This document shows, in pieces, positions 3,372 through 11,095 of a stretch of DNA of 64,000 nt (the first letter of the stretch is position 1; each line of letters begins with the position of its first letter). The stretch is from positions 1,302,001 through 1,366,000 of the forward strand of contig NZ_CP149511.1 of NCBI RefSeq assembly GCF_040126305.1. The letters are read 5' to 3'. The stretch is from Pararhizobium sp. A13 (GTDB lineage: Bacteria; Pseudomonadota; Alphaproteobacteria; Rhizobiales; Rhizobiaceae). The position numbers were made by a program, and so were the translations under genes. The notes under the pieces were generated by a model, which did not search any database, was not told where the DNA came from, and worked only from the letters and a program-made list of their open reading frames with translations.

Positions 3372-5357
3372 GTGACGATGTTAGACAAGATCACCGAAGA
3401 GATTGCCCATTTCATTGGCGTCTTCCACGTCAGCGTCGAAGACGCTCGCTTCAGGGAGACGTATCTAGAATTCTCCTTCGATCCGGTCGAGGCCGAACTG
3501 GATCCGCTTCCGGTTGTTGAAACCAGTTTCGAAGCACCCTATGAGCTGCTGGGTTACGATCCCGGACTGGACTACCGATCGCCCGCGCCCCAGCCCTGGC
3601 ATCTCGATCCGCAATCAGCAAAGTTCCAGGACGTACCACCTTTCCACGGCGCCGATGAAACCATCCCTGGCAATACAGGATACGACTGGCCGGAGCATGC
3701 AGCCGCCACACACGGCACGACGAAATTTATTCCCCCGGAGATCGAGCCTCCCGGATCGGTCGTCAATCATCTCAATCAGGCCATCGCCCTTTCCGACAAT
3801 GACTATGTTGGTGTTGGCGGGCACGGCCTCGTCTATTCCCCAGATCCCATCGACAATTCCGATTTGCTCGAGGGCGCAGACGCCGCAGCCTCGCTATCGC
3901 CCATCAGCGATCTGGAGCGGCCCGGTTCGAGCGCGGAGATCATCGCGGTCATCAAGACAGCCAGTAGCCAGCTTGAGGCCGCCCAAACCGGTGCTGGCGA
4001 CGTCGTGGAAAAGCTCGTCACTGCAGAGACCCTCGAAGGTGTGTATGTCAACGGAGAGCTGGTTTTGGAGGCACCCAAGCTCGAGGACTACCACTTGTTC
4101 GAGGAGGAGAACTCCGAAGAAGATCCAGGCTCCAATACCGCCACATTGGACGACGGAACTGTCGCCATCGACGTTTCGGTCGAGGTAAAGGCCGGCGGAA
4201 ACACCTTGGTCAACGACGCCGTCCTGAAGAGCTACTGGACCGGCGGGACAGTGACCGCGGTCGTCGGTGACCATGTCGAGATGAATGCAATCGTCCAGAT
4301 CAACGCGTTGTGGGACGTCGATGCGATCACCTCTTCGGTCGGCGTTCCGACGAGCGGTGACGCCAACGAGCTGTTCAACAGCGCAACGTTCGAACGTTTG
4401 GACGCCTCCAAGGAACCAGACACCGATCCCGGAATTGTCGACGACTATCCAAAATACTGGTCAATCACGGAGATCGAGGGAGACCTCATGATCGTGAACT
4501 GGCTCAAGCAGTTCATCTTCATGAGCGACAACGATGTCGGCATTCTCTCCTCGTCCGGCGTCACGACAAGCGTTGTGAGCGGCGACAATCTCGGCGTGAA
4601 CCATACGTCCATCTTCGAACTGGGCTTTGCCTACGACCTGATTATCGTTGGAGGCTCGGTTTACGACGCCAACATCATTCAACAGATGAACGTCCTGTTC
4701 GACAACGACGTCGTGGGCGCGGTGTCCGGTTTCCAGACCACCGGGGTGGGCACGGTCTCCTCGTCCGCGAACCTGCTCTGGAACCAGGCCCACATCGCCA
4801 ATATCGGAGATCCGGACCGGTTTGACGTGTTACCGCAACACTATCTGGATGCTGCAAACGCGCTGGCAGGCGGCAGCAGGGATATTTCGCACAAGGTGCT
4901 TTCCGATGAGGCGTTTGCGGGTCTGACGGGGCTGCGGGTCCTCCATATTGGTGGTGACCTCCTCAACCTTCAGTTCATCCAACAGACAAACATTCTCGGC
5001 GACAGTGATCAAATCGCGCTCGCGATGGATGCGATATCCCCCCATCTCGATGCCGGATGGTCGATCTCGACGGGTTCCAACGCGCTGTTGAACAATGCCG
5101 CCATCATTGATCTCGATTCCTTTGGAAAGACTTATGTCGGCGGCGATCAATATTCTCAAGAGACGCTCTTCCAGGCCGAACTGATATCGCACCAGCCTGA
5201 CTTTGGCGGTCCCGATGCGGACGCACTCGTCAACGAAGCCGTGCTTTTCCTCGACGATTCCATGCTGGACCCGACCGATGTGGCGGCATCCCAGCCCTAC
5301 ACTGCAGAATACGATGTGCACCCGGACGACGGGGTGAACAGCGTGCTTGGACATTAG
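3372..5357 (+). CDS. Acidic repeat protein, putative type I secretion substrate (661 aa)
   Basis: I cannot name a family. The protein is acidic, lacks a Sec signal and membrane spans, and contains at least five diverged repeats. The core of each is [IL]xQxxxLxDxDxV: LNQAIALSDNDYV, IVQINALWDVDAI, LKQFIFMSDNDVG, IQQMNVLFDNDVV and IQQTNILGDSDQI. These alternate with GxNxLxNxA units such as GSNALLNNAAI, and each core is preceded by a VGG or IGGDL strand. The upstream glycine-rich protein has the same elements (INQVANLQDNDQL, GANLQQNAVDMTVVGGSL), which supports a shared fold or export route. The GTG at 3372 is preferred over the ATG at 3378 because GGGAG at 3359-3363 is correctly spaced. The exporter gene begins 8 nt after the stop. 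D-rich turns could bind calcium, but canonical RTX nonapeptides are absent. Confidence 0.75.
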   Translation: MTMLDKITEEIAHFIGVFHVSVEDARFRETYLEFSFDPVEAELDPLPVVETSFEAPYELLGYDPGLDYRSPAPQPWHLDPQSAKFQDVPPFHGADETIPGNTGYDWPEHAAATHGTTKFIPPEIEPPGSVVNHLNQAIALSDNDYVGVGGHGLVYSPDPIDNSDLLEGADAAASLSPISDLERPGSSAEIIAVIKTASSQLEAAQTGAGDVVEKLVTAETLEGVYVNGELVLEAPKLEDYHLFEEENSEEDPGSNTATLDDGTVAIDVSVEVKAGGNTLVNDAVLKSYWTGGTVTAVVGDHVEMNAIVQINALWDVDAITSSVGVPTSGDANELFNSATFERLDASKEPDTDPGIVDDYPKYWSITEIEGDLMIVNWLKQFIFMSDNDVGILSSSGVTTSVVSGDNLGVNHTSIFELGFAYDLIIVGGSVYDANIIQQMNVLFDNDVVGAVSGFQTTGVGTVSSSANLLWNQAHIANIGDPDRFDVLPQHYLDAANALAGGSRDISHKVLSDEAFAGLTGLRVLHIGGDLLNLQFIQQTNILGDSDQIALAMDAISPHLDAGWSISTGSNALLNNAAIIDLDSFGKTYVGGDQYSQETLFQAELISHQPDFGGPDADALVNEAVLFLDDSMLDPTDVAASQPYTAEYDVHPDDGVNSVLGH

Positions 5358-5365
5358 GGGGATGA

Positions 5366-7555
5366 ATGTTTGATATCCGCAAACGCCTTCCCGTCCCGAC
5401 CGGACCGATGGAGGCCAACACAGAGAACACAAGCCCGCCTCGGCGCGCATATGACAGTATGGAGGAAGTCTGTGCGGAATTCGAGCGTGCCGTGGACGAA
5501 TGCCTGAACGCCAGCTTGGGCGCACCCTCGCCAGAAGTAGGCATATCCCGCAAGCAGTCCGCGACGGGTGGTCAGCCGATGCAACCGCCATATAGGGTCC
5601 ACAATTCCTTTGCCCCACCTCAGGGCGCAGGCCGCGCCGCCTTTGCGCCGGCTAGCAAGGCCCCGGCTGAGCCGCCGGCACGCGGCGTGCCAGAGGTCAA
5701 GGTAGTCGATGGCATGAAGATCGTAGAGGGCGACTGTGGTCCCGTTACAGCCGATCCTCCTTTGGCTGGCAAGCCGTTTTCCGGTGGAAGTGGCAATGGA
5801 GCGGGCAAAGGGCGCGGCACGTTCCACAAGCGTCTCGGGCCGATCGACTTCACTGCCAGTCTCAAGGCAGGCATCAACGCAGTACGGCACAACCTGATGA
5901 TCGTCATGTTGTTCACGGTCGCGAGCAACGTGCTTGTCCTGGCGATCCCGATCTATCTGTTCCAGATTTCCGATCGTGTTCTGACAAGCCGCTCGATCGA
6001 CACTTTGATCATGCTCACGGTCGTGATCGTCGGCGCAATCATTCTGCAAGCGATGTTCGACGCATTGCGGCGTTTCGTCCTGATGCGTACGGCCGTGGAA
6101 GTTGCCGCCCAACTTGGTGCGCCGATCCTGAGCGCCGCGGCCCGCGCTTCGCTGCATAGCAATGGTCGGGAGTACCAGACCCTCGGCGACCTTCAGCAGG
6201 TGCGATCTTTTCTCGTCTCAAGAACGCTGCTGTCATTTCTGGATGCGCCGATCGCCCCCGTTTTTCTTCTCGCTGTTTTCCTCATTCACCCGCATCTCGG
6301 ATTTATCGTCGTGACGACAGCGATCCTGCTTTTGATTCTCACACAAATAAACCAGCGCATGACAGCCACACCCTTCGCGGATGCAAACACAGCCCAGGTG
6401 AAGGCCAATCTTCACCTGGATTCGATGACGCGCAACTCGCAGATCATCAATGCGCTGGCGATGATACCGGAAGCAGTGCAAATCTGGGGAAAGGACACCG
6501 CCGCTTCCCTGAAAGCGCAAGTCATTGCCCAGGACAGGAATATCGCGATCTCAGCGATTTCAAGGGGTACACGGCTTTTGACCCAGGTTACGATGCTAGG
6601 CTGGGGTGCATATCTCGCGGTTGAGGGCGAATTGACCGGCGGCATGGTAATCGCCTCATCGATAATCGCCGGTCGCGCGCTCGCGCCGATTGAAGGCGCA
6701 ATCGAAGGATGGAACCAATTCAGCCAGTCCCGTGCCGCCTATGGCCGGATAGCAGCCTTGCTGAAGGCTTCGCCTTTCAATTTCGAACGCCTCAATCTGC
6801 CGAAGCCCGAAGGACGCCTTGACGTCGAACGGCTGCTCTACGTGCCGCAGGGGACGAAGCGCGTCGTGCTCAACGGAATCTCATTCGCTCTACAGCCCGG
6901 AGATTCACTGGCGGTTATCGGCAACTCCGGCGCGGGAAAGACCACGTTAGGCAAGATGCTCGTCGGATCGATCCTGCCAACTTCGGGAAATGTCAGACTG
7001 GATCTGATGGATCTCCGCAACTGGGACCAGCGGCAGTTCGGCGAGAATATCGGCTACCTGCCGCAGGATGTGCAGCTCTTTCCCGGCACAATCAAGGCCA
7101 ATATTGCCCGGATGAGAATGGACGCCGAAGATGAACAGGTCTACCGGGCAGCCATGCTGGCCGACGTTCATGAGATGATTGCGACCCTGCCGCACGGGTA
7201 TGAGACGGTGGTTGCCGCCGATGGTTCGCCCCTTTCCGGCGGCCAGAAGCAACGTATTGCCCTTGCCCGCGCGTTCTTCGGAGATCCCCATCTGGTGGTG
7301 CTGGATGAGCCCAACTCGAACCTCGACAACGCAGGCGATGCTGCACTCGTGCAGGCCCTCCAGCATGCGAAGGAGCAAAAGATCACCGTGGTAACCATCA
7401 CTCAGCGGCCCGCGCTTCTCAAAGGCGTCGACAAGATACTCCTGCTGGTGAACGGGACGGTGGCGCTGTTTGGTATGCGCATCGACGTTTTGAAAGCGCT
7501 GGAGACGCGCGGGATAAACATCGAGGGCGGCGCCTTCGGTCATCAACTGCAGTAG
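5366..7555 (+). CDS. Type I secretion ABC transporter, PrsD/AprD-like, with extra N-terminal region (729 aa)
   Basis: This is the inner-membrane ATPase/permease of a type I secretion system. Residues about 1-165 are proline-rich and look disordered, which is unusual: the family is normally near 580 residues. A six-helix membrane domain follows (about 180-450), then the nucleotide-binding domain. That domain has Walker A GNSGAGKTT (about 519-527), a Q-loop at YLPQDVQLF, signature LSGGQ (about 622-626), and Walker B LVVLDEP followed by NSNLD. The C39 peptidase domain of bacteriocin exporters is absent. It lies 8 nt after the repeat-protein gene and 12 nt before the HlyD gene, so all four genes are probably one operon. 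The N-terminal extension may recruit these unusual substrates; that is a guess. Confidence 0.92.
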   Translation: MFDIRKRLPVPTGPMEANTENTSPPRRAYDSMEEVCAEFERAVDECLNASLGAPSPEVGISRKQSATGGQPMQPPYRVHNSFAPPQGAGRAAFAPASKAPAEPPARGVPEVKVVDGMKIVEGDCGPVTADPPLAGKPFSGGSGNGAGKGRGTFHKRLGPIDFTASLKAGINAVRHNLMIVMLFTVASNVLVLAIPIYLFQISDRVLTSRSIDTLIMLTVVIVGAIILQAMFDALRRFVLMRTAVEVAAQLGAPILSAAARASLHSNGREYQTLGDLQQVRSFLVSRTLLSFLDAPIAPVFLLAVFLIHPHLGFIVVTTAILLLILTQINQRMTATPFADANTAQVKANLHLDSMTRNSQIINALAMIPEAVQIWGKDTAASLKAQVIAQDRNIAISAISRGTRLLTQVTMLGWGAYLAVEGELTGGMVIASSIIAGRALAPIEGAIEGWNQFSQSRAAYGRIAALLKASPFNFERLNLPKPEGRLDVERLLYVPQGTKRVVLNGISFALQPGDSLAVIGNSGAGKTTLGKMLVGSILPTSGNVRLDLMDLRNWDQRQFGENIGYLPQDVQLFPGTIKANIARMRMDAEDEQVYRAAMLADVHEMIATLPHGYETVVAADGSPLSGGQKQRIALARAFFGDPHLVVLDEPNSNLDNAGDAALVQALQHAKEQKITVVTITQRPALLKGVDKILLLVNGTVALFGMRIDVLKALETRGINIEGGAFGHQLQ

Positions 7556-7567
7556 GAGACGACCACT

Positions 7568-8908
7568 ATGTCTGACATCGCCAAGGTCCACGATATAGAA
7601 TGGTATGCCGACGTTCCAAGATCGATCTGGAAGCAGACAACGGTCGGGTTGGTCCTGTTGGGCGTATCATTCGGTGGTTTCGGGACCTGGGCGTCCACGG
7701 CCCCTCTCGCGGCAGCGGTCATCACGCAGGGCAGTTTCGTTGCCACGGGCCAGAACAAGATTTTGCAGCACCTGGAGGGCGGCATCATCAAGCAAATTCT
7801 CGTCAGCGAAGGCGATCAGGTGGTCGAAAATCAGCCGCTGGTACGGCTCGATGAGACCGCAGCGCTGGCAAAAAAACGGGAGCTGTTTCTGCGCCGCATG
7901 AGATTGGATGTTACAGCGGCCCGTCTGACGGCGCAATTCGAGCGCGCCGATGTTCTCGATATATCGAGCTTGCTGAGCAAACACCGCGACGATCACGATG
8001 TCTGGTCGATCCTGGTCAGCCAACAACTCAATTTCAAGGCCCAGCAGCTTAAGCTTTCCGGCGAACTCTCCCTGCTTGAGCAAAACATAAAGGCCCTGCA
8101 ATTTCGCGAGGTAGGATACACTCGGCAGCGTGATGCGACCGTGCGGCAGCTCGAGCTGCTCAAGGATGAGCATCAAAGCAAGAAGGCCCTGCTGGCCAAG
8201 GGATTGGTGCGTGCAAATGAGGTGAAGGCCATACAGCGGGCGATTGCCGAGGCTGAGGGACAGATCGGACGGCTTGAAGCAGAGATAGCGGAAACACAAG
8301 CGCAATCGGTGAAAGGGCAACAGGAGGTCCTTCGGGCGGAAGGTATCTATCGAGAAGAAGCTCTCGAACGACTGCAATCGATACAAAGTGAACGCGATGC
8401 GGTTCGCGAGCAATTGCGCGAAGCCGAAAATGTGCTCGAGCGCGCGACTATCAACGCGCCCGTTTCCGGGACTGTTGTTCGCACCCACTACCATACGACA
8501 GGTGGCGTAATCGAAACCGGCAAGGCAATTCTCGAAATACTTCCTGCGGGCGTGCCGCTGATCATTGAAGCGCAGATATCCCGCAACGACATCGACAGCG
8601 TGAAGCTGGGACAGACAGCCACCATACGCTTGGTCGCATTAAACCAGCGAACAACACCGGTGCTGCAGGGAACTGTATTCTATATCTCGGCGGACGCCGT
8701 GCAAAACAGCAAGACAGGCTTGGCAGAGCATGACGTTTATCTTGCTCGCATCAATATCTCCCCTGGAGAAATCGCAAGGGTCCATGGTTTCGCACCAACG
8801 CCAGGCATGCCCGTCGAGGTCATGATTCAGACAACGGAAAGGACTTTCTTCAGTTACATTGCAAAACCAGTCACGGACAGTATGTCCAGGGCCTTCGCCG
8901 AACAATGA
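7568..8908 (+). CDS. Type I secretion membrane fusion protein, HlyD/PrsE family (446 aa)
   Basis: This is the periplasmic adaptor that links the ABC exporter to an outer-membrane channel. It has a short cytoplasmic N-terminus, one membrane span (about residues 28-48), and a lipoyl half-motif QGSFVATGQNKILQHLEGGI. A long coiled-coil hairpin follows (about 110-300, rich in E, Q and R). The second half-motif is at ATINAPVSGTVV, and the beta-barrel region is near MPVEVMIQTTERTFFSYIAKP, a typical end for this family. The length is normal. The gene follows the ABC gene by 12 nt with an AGGAG-like site (gtaggagacg). No TolC-type gene lies nearby, so the system must use an outer-membrane factor encoded elsewhere. 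Confidence 0.93.
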   Translation: MSDIAKVHDIEWYADVPRSIWKQTTVGLVLLGVSFGGFGTWASTAPLAAAVITQGSFVATGQNKILQHLEGGIIKQILVSEGDQVVENQPLVRLDETAALAKKRELFLRRMRLDVTAARLTAQFERADVLDISSLLSKHRDDHDVWSILVSQQLNFKAQQLKLSGELSLLEQNIKALQFREVGYTRQRDATVRQLELLKDEHQSKKALLAKGLVRANEVKAIQRAIAEAEGQIGRLEAEIAETQAQSVKGQQEVLRAEGIYREEALERLQSIQSERDAVREQLREAENVLERATINAPVSGTVVRTHYHTTGGVIETGKAILEILPAGVPLIIEAQISRNDIDSVKLGQTATIRLVALNQRTTPVLQGTVFYISADAVQNSKTGLAEHDVYLARINISPGEIARVHGFAPTPGMPVEVMIQTTERTFFSYIAKPVTDSMSRAFAEQ

Positions 8909-9229: not shown

Positions 9230-9333
9230 TCGTATCCAAGGCGGCTGAATCAAGCCGTCTTTCTTTTCGCTGCTTACCTTTGTTCGTAGATAGGTGCGTA
9301 ATATTTTATAGCAGAGCCTCAATCCCAATAACG

Positions 9334-9369
9334 AAAAAGCCTGCCGCGGGAGGAGGTGCGGCAGGCTTT
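9334..9369 (-). terminator. Rho-independent terminator formed by the last sRNA hairpin
   Basis: A perfect 12-bp stem (9336-9347 with 9358-9369) has a 10-nt loop that is itself the CCUCCUCCC motif. On the minus strand it runs into TTTTT and then CG. The terminator and the final sRNA unit are therefore the same structure. Confidence 0.75.
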
Positions 9370-9490
9370 CGAAAAGAACCGAACAGCGACTGGGAGGAGG
9401 AGTGCCGCTGTTCCAACAGACGTCCCTGGGAGGAGGAGTGGGCCGTCTGAAACACGAAGCTCTGCGGGAGGAGGTGCATTGCTTCGATGC
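9334..9490 (-). ncRNA. Array of four CCUCCUCCC-loop hairpin sRNAs (alpha-r14/'cuckoo' type)
   Basis: Four short inverted repeats lie in a row, each with GGGAGGAGG on the plus strand, so the minus-strand transcript exposes CCUCCUCCC in each loop. The motif is at 9348-9356, 9392-9400, 9428-9436 and 9466-9474. The stems are 9336-9347/9358-9369 (12 bp perfect), 9381-9388/9406-9413 (8 bp), 9417-9422/9444-9449 plus an inner 3 bp, and 9455-9460/9481-9486. The loop mimics the anti-Shine-Dalgarno sequence of 16S rRNA. Known alphaproteobacterial families (alpha-r14, cuckoo RNAs, Rhodobacter CcsR1-4) have this motif and lie downstream of a DUF1127 gene, as here. In Rhodobacter they are stress-induced through RpoH-type sigma factors. 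The last stem is followed by five U and serves as terminator. Confidence 0.88.
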
Positions 9491-9532
9491 GTTTAATCAT
9501 ACGCCGATCATCGGTGTTTCATAGGCACAATG

Positions 9533-9543
9533 CTGCACTGCAG
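9533..9543. promoter_or_regulatory. CTGC-N3-GCAG palindrome upstream of the sRNA array
   Basis: CTGCACTGCAG lies between the DUF1127 terminator and the first hairpin, in the region where a separate array promoter would sit. It matches the CTGC-N3-GCAG form described for PhaR/AniA regulators of polyhydroxybutyrate metabolism. A regulatory role here is only a suggestion. Confidence 0.3.
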
Positions 9544-9619
9544 CTATGCAAGAAAAACATGTCGGAAATGCCGACCACAAAACGAGAACCGGACAGCCTC
9601 AGGCATCGACACTTGATAC

Positions 9620-9647
9620 AAAAAACGCCCGCGTCATGAGCGGGCGT
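9620..9647 (-). terminator. Rho-independent terminator after the DUF1127 gene
   Basis: An 8-bp GC-rich stem (9625-9632 with 9640-9647, 7-nt loop) is followed on the minus strand by six T residues. It ends the DUF1127 transcript 34 nt after its stop codon. The downstream sRNAs therefore need read-through or their own promoter. Confidence 0.85.
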
Positions 9648-9680
9648 CGTGCAGTGCCAAGCAGGTGCAATCTGGTGCTC

Positions 9681-9827
9681 TTAGCGAGCAACCGATGCGC
9701 GGGCAACGCGGCGGATGTCGGCCCGGTCGATACCGAGGTCCTGCAGTTCACGGCTGGACATGCGGTCAAGTTCGGTAACGGTCTGACGGAACTTGCGCCA
9801 GTTGTTGAAAGAGCGTGCTACGTTCAT
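9681..9827 (-). CDS. DUF1127 small protein (48 aa)
   Basis: This tiny arginine-rich protein begins MNVARSFNNWRKFRQTV and contains the DUF1127 core: RMSSRELQDLGIDRADI then RRVARAS. It is too short for routine ORF filters. The leader reads AGGAAGGGGATTATC before the ATG, giving a strong ribosome-binding site. DUF1127 proteins in alphaproteobacteria are stress-linked; small members in Rhodobacter and Agrobacterium affect RNA turnover and phosphate or stress physiology. The tandem CCUCCUCCC sRNAs downstream are a conserved partnership. A perfect palindrome lies 82 nt upstream of the start. Confidence 0.92.
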   Translation of the reverse strand: MNVARSFNNWRKFRQTVTELDRMSSRELQDLGIDRADIRRVARASVAR

Positions 9828-9908
9828 GATAATCCCCTTCCTGAGGGCTTTCTGACGTCAGCAACCTTACTTGGCTCCGGCGTCGTTTCGATGATTGGAA
9901 CATAGGCC

Positions 9909-9924: not shown

Positions 9925-9998
9925 ACAGCGACAATACCTCACGCCACCCATGCGCTTGGCGCATGGGTTCTACGAATTCGGCAGGAGATGATCGTTTT

Positions 9999-10970
9999 TT
10001 AAGCTCTGAAGCGATCGAATGCCGTCAGACGCTTGGTTGGCGGATCGGCATCCGGGTAGCGATAGATCTCGGTCCTGAGATAGTGAAGCTCTGCTTCCAG
10101 CGCTTCTTCATCAACTTCGATCCACCAGGATTTCGGTCGCCCGTCGCTTCCATCCGACCAGCGATAGCCCCGCCCCTTCAGGTGGTCCTTCATATCGAAG
10201 GGGCTGTTTTCGGCGAAGATACGGACCCGCGAGCGCTGACTCGTCGCGTATAGCTCCGCGAATGCAGTGCCAAAGCCGACTTTCTCCTGCGCCAAAACTT
10301 CCATCAGGGCAAAACAGTCATCGACGGCGCGATGACCATCATGAAAGTAACCCGCCTGCCCGATCAGATAGCCAAGCTTCGTGCCCTCGAACCCGCGTGA
10401 TGACCAGTCTATTTCGGCGTTTGAGCACGCCCAGGCCTTGCCTTTGAACACGGAAGAAAACGCTTCACAGAAAGGCCGGTCGAAACCGGCATTGTGGGCA
10501 ATAATGAGATCGGCAGGTTCGATCAACGAACGCAGCGTCACAGTGTCGATCACCTGTCCAGCGACCATCTCATCGGTGATGCCAGTAAGTTTAGTGACTT
10601 CGGCGGGGATTGATCCCGTCGGCTGCTGCAGTCCGCCGTAGATCCCTGTAACATCACCGAGCATTCCACACTCATCGAAGGTAAACGCGATCACGCCAAT
10701 CTCAATGATCTCGTCTTTACGATGATTGAGGCCTGTAGTCTCGGTGTCGAGAATGACACCTCGGAGGGGGTATTCCGGACGCATAGACGGCACAATCGCA
10801 CGGGGCTCAAGCTTCTTCAGGATGCGGTAGCGACCAGTTTCCATCAGGTGCTGAACCATACTCGCTTCACTCATCGCGGTCGGCGGGTGTCGCTTCGTTT
10901 GTGCATTGCGACTGGAGTTTGGAGAGACCTCGCCTGCTCCATTCGAAAACATGTCGAACTGTGCTGTCAT
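9999..10970 (-). CDS. DEDDh 3'-5' exonuclease, DnaQ/epsilon-like (323 aa)
   Basis: All three motifs of the DEDDh exonuclease family are present: Exo I DTETTG (D75, E77 from the chosen start), Exo II HNAGFDRPF, and Exo III HRAVDD with the catalytic His. About 70 residues precede the nuclease domain. The C-terminal region (about 220-323) is an extra domain with KGRGYRWSDG and WWIEVDEE, known from stand-alone proofreading-like exonucleases in rhizobia. The start MTAQFDMFS at 10970 is preferred; 10994 would add eight residues. It is probably a repair or proofreading accessory rather than the replicative epsilon subunit. No operon partners are visible. Confidence 0.88.
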   Translation of the reverse strand: MTAQFDMFSNGAGEVSPNSSRNAQTKRHPPTAMSEASMVQHLMETGRYRILKKLEPRAIVPSMRPEYPLRGVILDTETTGLNHRKDEIIEIGVIAFTFDECGMLGDVTGIYGGLQQPTGSIPAEVTKLTGITDEMVAGQVIDTVTLRSLIEPADLIIAHNAGFDRPFCEAFSSVFKGKAWACSNAEIDWSSRGFEGTKLGYLIGQAGYFHDGHRAVDDCFALMEVLAQEKVGFGTAFAELYATSQRSRVRIFAENSPFDMKDHLKGRGYRWSDGSDGRPKSWWIEVDEEALEAELHYLRTEIYRYPDADPPTKRLTAFDRFRA

Positions 10971-11095
10971 TCCCGCCGTTCTCTGCTGCTGCACCTGCCG
11001 AAATCAATACCATACCAAGATAGGCACAGGATCAGCTGTTGTGGTTTGCCAAGTTGGATATAAGCCAAACATCAAAACAAATCAGGAGAAAGCGT

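Follow-up and report, generated by a model that had tools for sequence, protein, structure and literature searches.

How is an array of four anti-Shine-Dalgarno hairpins expressed when it stands behind a DUF1127 gene on the minus strand of a Pararhizobium sp. A13 chromid, and is the RNA that it encodes a new one? The preliminary description of this locus expected the four tandem copies to titrate or target many mRNAs, carried over a link to RpoH from the CcsR RNAs of Rhodobacter, and offered either read-through from the DUF1127 gene or a promoter of the array's own. We analysed these points by motif counts, folding, covariance models and comparison with related loci; the window is the whole 64,000-nt stretch of DNA that was analysed.

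A four-hairpin member of the ar14 family

The motif CCTCCTCCC is present in four exact copies in the 64-kb window, all on the minus strand. Shuffled sequences contained 0.63 copies on average, and four copies were reached in 1 of 100 shuffles, a comparison that demanded neither clustering nor a single strand. Folding of the array placed all four copies in predicted hairpin loops (Table 1), and the 186-nt stretch folded had an energy of −69.4 kcal/mol, compared with a shuffled mean of −51.7 (z −4.57; none of 200 shuffles was as low). Motif count and fold together confirmed the four minus-strand hairpins with exact loops that had been described (9488-9336), and their location behind the DUF1127 gene was correct. 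The last hairpin, previously taken to be a terminator as well, does end in CTTTTTCG.

Table 1. Features of the array and of the DUF1127 gene (window coordinates).
Feature	Position	Strand	Details
Rfam ar14 (RF02344) match	9332..9455	-	model positions 1-123; covers hairpins 2-4
Hairpin 4, also intrinsic terminator	9336..9369	-	loop CCTCCTCCC 9356-9348; 4/12 pairs changed on both sides
Hairpin 3	9381..9413	-	loop CCTCCTCCC 9400-9392; 8/10 pairs changed on both sides
Hairpin 2	9417..9449	-	loop CCTCCTCCC 9436-9428; 9/9 pairs changed on both sides
Hairpin 1	9455..9486	-	loop CCTCCTCCC 9474-9466; not among the three hairpins that Rfam ar14 covers
Array -10 TATGAT (9501-9496) and predicted start A9488	9488..9501	-	from alignment of relatives
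LsrB/VtlR-type box GCATAGCTGCAGT of the array promoter	9537..9549	-	-61..-49; conserved TGCA extension to 9534
Intrinsic terminator of the DUF1127 gene	9624..9648	-	9 pairs, then TTTT
DUF1127 small protein gene, 48 aa	9681..9827	-	Pfam PF06568, 53.6 bits (cut-off 23.3)
DUF1127 -10 TATGTT (9904-9899) and predicted start A9892	9892..9904	-	from alignment
LsrB/VtlR-type box GCATGGGTGGCGT (GCAT-N3-TG-N3-T)	9941..9953	-	-61..-49 of the predicted DUF1127 start

To look for covariation, we reduced 113 arrays to 28 by thinning at 90% similarity; 27 of these, the window included, were aligned and L135 was left out. The stems are kept in these relatives (95.8% of 1068 cells paired), and 21 of 40 pairs had changed on both sides, all of them in hairpins 2, 3 and 4. 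When the partners were slid by 1-3 columns as a control, 34-49% of cells were paired and 8-11 pairs had changed on both sides. Hairpin 1 hardly varies in the 27 arrays and has no covariation support; because 26 of them were collected via a pattern inside hairpin 1, its near invariance is partly forced.

The covariance-model search that had been proposed for alpha-r14/cuckoo matched Rfam ar14 (RF02344) with a whole-model score of 111.4 bits against a gathering cut-off of 58.8, and the array is thus a member of this family. Because the ar14 model has three hairpins, hairpin 1 (9486-9455) is an extra one. Membership in CcsR1 (RF02791; 34.1 bits, gathering cut-off 65.3) and in ar7 (32.9 bits, gathering cut-off 60) was rejected. 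The array has the features of the SmelA099-type/cuckoo RNAs, i.e. four hairpins, each with a CCUCCUCCC loop, and variable stems. This four-hairpin class was described in 2011 as RFM SmelA099 beside the three-hairpin SmelA075 class, and both were proposed to form one family with a variable number of modules and several copies per genome (PMC3927594). Given the ar14 match and the four-hairpin type of 2011, the RNA family is therefore not new, nor do the four tandem copies depart from what is known. Like SmelA099 on Sinorhizobium meliloti pSymA, the array has four CCUCCUCCC hairpins, the last of which is the terminator, and the same promoter box; unlike SmelA099, it stands behind a DUF1127 gene with the same promoter type. 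No DUF1127 gene was found beside the S. meliloti array copies of strains KH46 (L060) and 1021 (1.8-kb stretch).

Seven ar14 matches exceed the cut-off in the host genome, each with three or four motif copies, and among 101 Rhizobiaceae genomes drawn evenly a match was found in 97, above the cut-off in 93. A 157-nt array query matched 556 of 72,556 plasmid records and was covered to 80% or more in 456 of these, many of the matches coming from strains of the same species; the 701-nt stretch that includes the DUF1127 gene was covered to at least 80% in 132 plasmid records. With window positions 9334-9570 as a DNA query, 20 of 61 Rhizobiaceae genomes gave matches, often partial, and the four-hairpin array type is not universal in whole genomes of the family. 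Array loci were collected by a pattern that lies wholly inside hairpin 1, which yielded at least 120 stretches. Among the matches listed, the 117 loci with 190 nt downstream contained four exact motif copies in 98 cases, three in 17, two in 1 and one in 1, the first copy being fixed by the collecting pattern. This downstream set shares 114 loci with the upstream set, also of 117 loci, used below.

Predicted promoters of the array and of the DUF1127 gene

An upstream block is common to 20 DUF1127-linked and 9 orphan arrays (no DUF1127 gene in the fetched stretch) and consists of a GCAT-R-GCTGC-like box, a −10 element and then ATCGAAGC. The strict pattern GCAT-N3-TG-N3-T was found in 27 of these 29 arrays, including all nine orphans; in the linked locus L047, the counted box position lies behind a longer stretch of sequence than in the other loci. 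In the larger set of 117 relatives with at least 80 nt upstream, which were chosen by hairpin 1 alone and not by promoter, 106 of the matches listed have the strict box, against an expectation of 0.075 from mononucleotide shuffles of the upstream sequences. The interval counted, −66 to −60 of CGAAGC, was set after the positions had been seen, and the 106 boxes lie at −64 to −61; the 117 loci represent 115 distinct sequences and fewer independent lineages. The strict box is absent from the other 11 listed loci (the region is lost in L160), and 115 of the 117 listed conform to a looser pattern.

Column counts of the box in the relatives read GCATRGCTGCnnTGCA. TA[TC] is found at the −10 place in 113 of the 117 relatives listed, and of the 103 listed loci in which box and −10 were both found, 89 have them at a distance of 48. 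In the window, the array box begins at 9549 and the DUF1127 box at 9953, each exactly 61 nt 5′ of its predicted start (A9488 and A9892, respectively). When 65 arrays were sorted by copy class, the strict box stood before 10 of 12 arrays with four copies, 13 of 39 with three and 2 of 14 with two.

The predicted start can be compared with a listed transcript. SmelA099 appears in a review table as a 160-nt transcript at pSymA 1328175-1328334, minus strand (PMC7143759). Read from the pSymA record, this stretch begins AATCGAAGC (longer reading AATCGAAGCGATGC), so that its 5′ end lies one base upstream of the position matching A9488; its other end lies past hairpin 4, and a strict box precedes its 5′ end by 59 nt. 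This agreement thus indicates that a four-hairpin RNA with the promoter-predicted start is already listed in S. meliloti. Of the two routes of expression considered earlier, comparison among relatives strongly favours the array's own promoter, with the box kept in 106 of the 117 loci listed, and appears to lend little support to read-through.

The RpoH link is not supported here. Of the RpoH-type promoter, CTTGAA-N16-CCTATAT as written in PMC8844928, CTTG alone was searched, in the interval 19-27 nt before the −10; among the matches listed, 4 of 113 array promoters have it there and 0 of 56 DUF1127 promoters do (from 59 linked loci, three of which have no −10 by the rule used), whereas both promoters of the window have an LsrB/VtlR-type box at −61. 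RpoH control, carried over from Rhodobacter CcsR, was consequently rejected as unsupported, and because CTTG is this rare, the RpoHI/RpoHII-dependent ccaF1-CcsR1-4 operon is a poor model for the A13 locus. Three three-hairpin ar14 loci of the host genome (L004, L006, L007) have CTTGA and a TGC-rich TGCAGCA in the core promoter and no strict box at −61; because their promoters differ in this way, at least two promoter types are in use within the ar14 family.

The pattern GCAT-N3-TG-N3-T is that of the VtlR/LsrB box, described as confirmed for Brucella abortus and as a hypothesis for Agrobacterium (PMC7486931), and the reverse complement of CAATGCAGCCATGCA, as which the Brucella VtlR motif is quoted (PMC12595884), contains it. 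In S. meliloti, the same box is reported at −61..−49 of PabcR1, where activity falls more than 22-fold once the motif region is removed; PabcR1 is bound by LsrB, and AbcR1 is undetectable without LsrB, while PabcR2 is given as a CTTGAA-N16-CCTATAT RpoH1-type promoter with no other conserved motif (PMC8844928). In the A13 window the box occupies the corresponding place before both units (9549-9537 and 9953-9941). AbcR1 (ar15), although it shares this box position, is a different RNA with other anti-Shine-Dalgarno motifs. VtlR is further reported to activate three DUF1127 genes in Brucella melitensis (PMC12595884). One of the closest known systems is NfeR1/Smr14C2 (alpha-r14), which belongs to the same Rfam family, has the same loops and is activated by LsrB; its promoter, like PabcR1, is published as binding LsrB and losing activity in an lsrB mutant. 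Unlike the array, NfeR1 has three hairpins and an LsrB site reported at −72..−57 and written differently, as TGCA-N6-GCAT, and it is also repressed by NtrC (PMC10746234).

A LysR-type gene lies directly upstream of one ar15/AbcR copy of the host genome, i.e. in the vtlR-abcR order described for Agrobacterium (PMC7486931). A one-letter variant of the box stands exactly at −61 of the Rfam start in two of the three ar15/AbcR copies; both stretches also hold one further one-letter match elsewhere, with approximately 0.19 expected by chance per stretch, and such near matches would not be rare by chance alone. Among the copies with the variant at −61 is L193 (G000:C2:1288698-1288813), which lies on the chromid. 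Seven sites in the host genome match the extended box GCATNNCTGCNNTGC, compared with three for the reversed pattern, and at four of these seven sites (L186, L187, L188, L192) no known RNA was found by Rfam in 3-kb stretches. The box could also serve a LysR regulator other than LsrB.

The DUF1127 gene has its own terminator, as described before, at 9648-9624. Across 19 linked loci, its promoters align with CTATRT followed by a CATCGAA-like sequence, and the box aligns too. The strict box was found 5′ of the DUF1127 gene in 40 of the 54 linked loci among the matches listed, always at −129..−122 of the inferred start codon, i.e. within 8 nt, and was absent from the remaining 14. The host genome has eight DUF1127 matches, and the strict box stands before two of them, both short genes; a third short DUF1127 gene (L010) is without it. 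An inverted repeat, CCCATGC-N7-GCATGGG (window 9967-9947), overlaps the DUF1127 box, with similar repeats in several relatives, and may be a half-site for a second regulator.

Two further neighbours were noted. An RNase_T-type exonuclease gene (window 9999-10994) precedes the DUF1127 gene, as it also does on some plasmids (L056, L059, L064), one of them a Ti plasmid; L056 and L064 have the RNase_T-type gene on one side and dinB on the other. Window 5366-8908 holds genes for ABC transporter and HlyD-like adaptor proteins, a type I secretion-like set, next to a 661-aa ORF (3372-5357).

Because box and spacing are shared, the listed SmelA099 5′ end agrees with the predicted start and CTTG is rare, the array and the DUF1127 gene are most likely separately transcribed units that are co-activated by LsrB. 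We consider it probable that the array is a stand-alone four-hairpin sRNA with its own LsrB/VtlR promoter, with the DUF1127 gene co-activated in parallel and the loops blocking several ribosome-binding sites.

Arrangement of arrays and DUF1127 genes in relatives

DUF1127 neighbours were searched with one query protein at E 1e-5. Among the matches listed, 105 loci had 700 nt or more of upstream sequence, and in 54 of them a same-strand DUF1127 gene lay no more than 600 nt upstream. A terminator-like hairpin lies between gene and array in 43 of these 54 linked loci, compared with 5 of 270 random segments of equal length, and by the rule used it is absent from 11. Because 11 of the 54 lack the terminator and 14 the DUF1127 box, read-through is possible at some loci.

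These counts bear on the reading that the array chiefly serves as a platform or sponge that binds the DUF1127 protein or ribosomes, and pairs with few specific mRNAs. Four identical loops beside a protein gene with the same promoter type would suit such a role, and the Rhodobacter DUF1127 protein CcaF1 is reported to bind RNA and to aid CcsR maturation (PMC10253847); handling of RNA by the A13 protein is conceivable on this precedent. However, 51 of the 105 loci among the matches listed have no same-strand DUF1127 gene within 600 nt on the upstream side, to which this search was confined, and the conserved loop is the anti-Shine-Dalgarno sequence itself. DUF1127 proteins can also work via protein partners, as through PhoR in Agrobacterium, and RNA binding of YjiS was reported as not seen (PMC12501420). 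We regard a sponge or platform as unlikely.

A layout set of 86 arrays from 87 loci, biased to high ar14 scores and including the window, comprised 20 arrays behind a DUF1127 gene, 25 upstream of one and 41 near none. In 12 of the 20, the layout is close: the first loop motif lies 17-95 nt past the DUF1127 stop, the arrays have two or three motif clusters, neither a strict box of their own nor a detected terminator, and the DUF1127 gene has a box in 3 of 12. The close-layout arrays look co-transcribed with the DUF1127 gene. The other eight have a split layout, with the first loop motif 166-273 nt past the stop and four hairpins in all cases; seven have their own box, five a terminator and six a strict box before the DUF1127 gene. 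The A13 locus, with 207 nt from the stop to the first loop motif, a terminator and an own box, belongs to the split layout. Eight loci of other Rhizobiaceae genomes (L031, L032, L034, L201, L215, L217, L219, L223) appear operon-like, with the first motif 17-31 nt past the DUF1127 stop and neither an own box nor a terminator. On the host chromosome (L001/L008; G000:C1, about 2986700-2988130), two ar14 arrays with three and four copies are followed by two DUF1127 genes, the reverse of the order in the window, and the first DUF1127 gene carries a strict box of the LsrB type.

According to a second alternative, transcription from an RpoH promoter would run through the DUF1127 gene into the array, and RNase E would then process the array from the 3′ part of this operon transcript. 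CcsR1-4 of Rhodobacter sphaeroides resemble the array in that their CCUCCUCCC hairpins adjoin a DUF1127 gene, and they form with ccaF1 a single RpoHI/RpoHII operon that is described as processed by RNase E (PMC10253847), a difference from the A13 array; the 12 close-layout arrays likewise look co-transcribed. The A13 locus, however, is of the other layout, CTTG is rare at the −35 place of listed array promoters (4/113) and absent from that of DUF1127 promoters (0/56), and the nine orphan arrays retain the box. We therefore consider an operon of this kind quite improbable here. That the array is a small protein gene, for which an ATG-started ORF of 64 aa spans it (9500-9306), or a mere terminator remnant is barely credible, as the ATG lies inside the −10 and upstream of the predicted start, the stems covary and the motif-copy spacing varies by 1-2 nt among relatives, so that the frame is shifted; the coding reading was rejected.

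The DUF1127-array stretches fall into one similarity cluster in 58 of 59 cases, while the downstream flanks form 17 clusters (51 loci, largest 13) and the upstream flanks 16 (53 loci, largest 29); given the cluster of 29, more than half of the upstream flanks share their context. In pairwise comparison, mean identity reached 0.85 in the array, against 0.73 in the DUF1127 coding part and 0.34 in the spacer. Neighbours in the fetched stretches include repC (L053, L054), dinB (L056, L063, L064), an IS630 transposase (L046) and groESL (L048). A phage origin was rejected, with no match among 50,697 phage records. The pattern of flanks and neighbours fits a transferable unit but also fits repeated rearrangement around a selected unit. 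Tentatively, and with more doubt than conviction, we propose that DUF1127 gene and array are a cassette moving among rhizobial replicons, in which an ancestral co-transcribed operon of protein and RNA was split, each unit having a copy of the LsrB promoter, so that one redox signal would yield an RNA-binding protein and an anti-Shine-Dalgarno RNA at once, in independent amounts.

Proposed action and significance

On the reading as a separately transcribed sRNA, positions 9488-9336 (minus strand) would encode a trans-acting RNA of ~155 nt, of the four-hairpin SmelA099 type within alpha-r14/cuckoo. The redox-responsive LysR regulator LsrB/VtlR would bind at −61..−49 of the array promoter and recruit RNA polymerase to a core promoter that lacks a CTTG-type −35, with transcription starting at A9488. 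Because the DUF1127 unit is separately terminated and has the same box and spacing, it would be co-activated in parallel and not co-transcribed, LsrB activating both units as it senses the redox state. The four CCUCCUCCC loops would then base-pair with ribosome-binding sites of the GGAGG type, as is reported of NfeR1, and so keep several mRNAs from being translated. To a large extent the loops are probably redundant; the anti-Shine-Dalgarno motifs of NfeR1 are reported to be redundant in action (PMC8844928). Transcript, LsrB binding and activation, and target repression in A13 are what we infer from these comparisons.

Candidate targets were sought by pattern. GGGAGGAGG-N2-9-ATG occurs eight times in the host genome, compared with two for the reversed pattern, an excess that is uninformative on selection because it is expected for any Shine-Dalgarno-like sequence. 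A Pfam scan covered six of the eight frames, all except two of fewer than 40 codons; it assigned a family to five of them, and these families share no theme.

The RNA family is thus already known, and what is new is the promoter wiring at the array and at the DUF1127 gene. In the literature, mostly seen in extracts, we found no report of LsrB control of the four-hairpin class or of its DUF1127 pair. The idea of heat-shock read-through is replaced by a specific prediction of LsrB control. If it is true, LsrB, for which activation of AbcR1, of NfeR1 and, in its VtlR form, of short DUF1127 genes is reported, would in addition drive the four-hairpin sRNAs, which are widespread on rhizobial plasmids, the A13 chromid and at least one Ti plasmid (L064). 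Several anti-Shine-Dalgarno small RNAs and DUF1127 proteins would then stand under a single redox regulator, which would give a reason for the occurrence of DUF1127 genes and anti-Shine-Dalgarno RNAs side by side.
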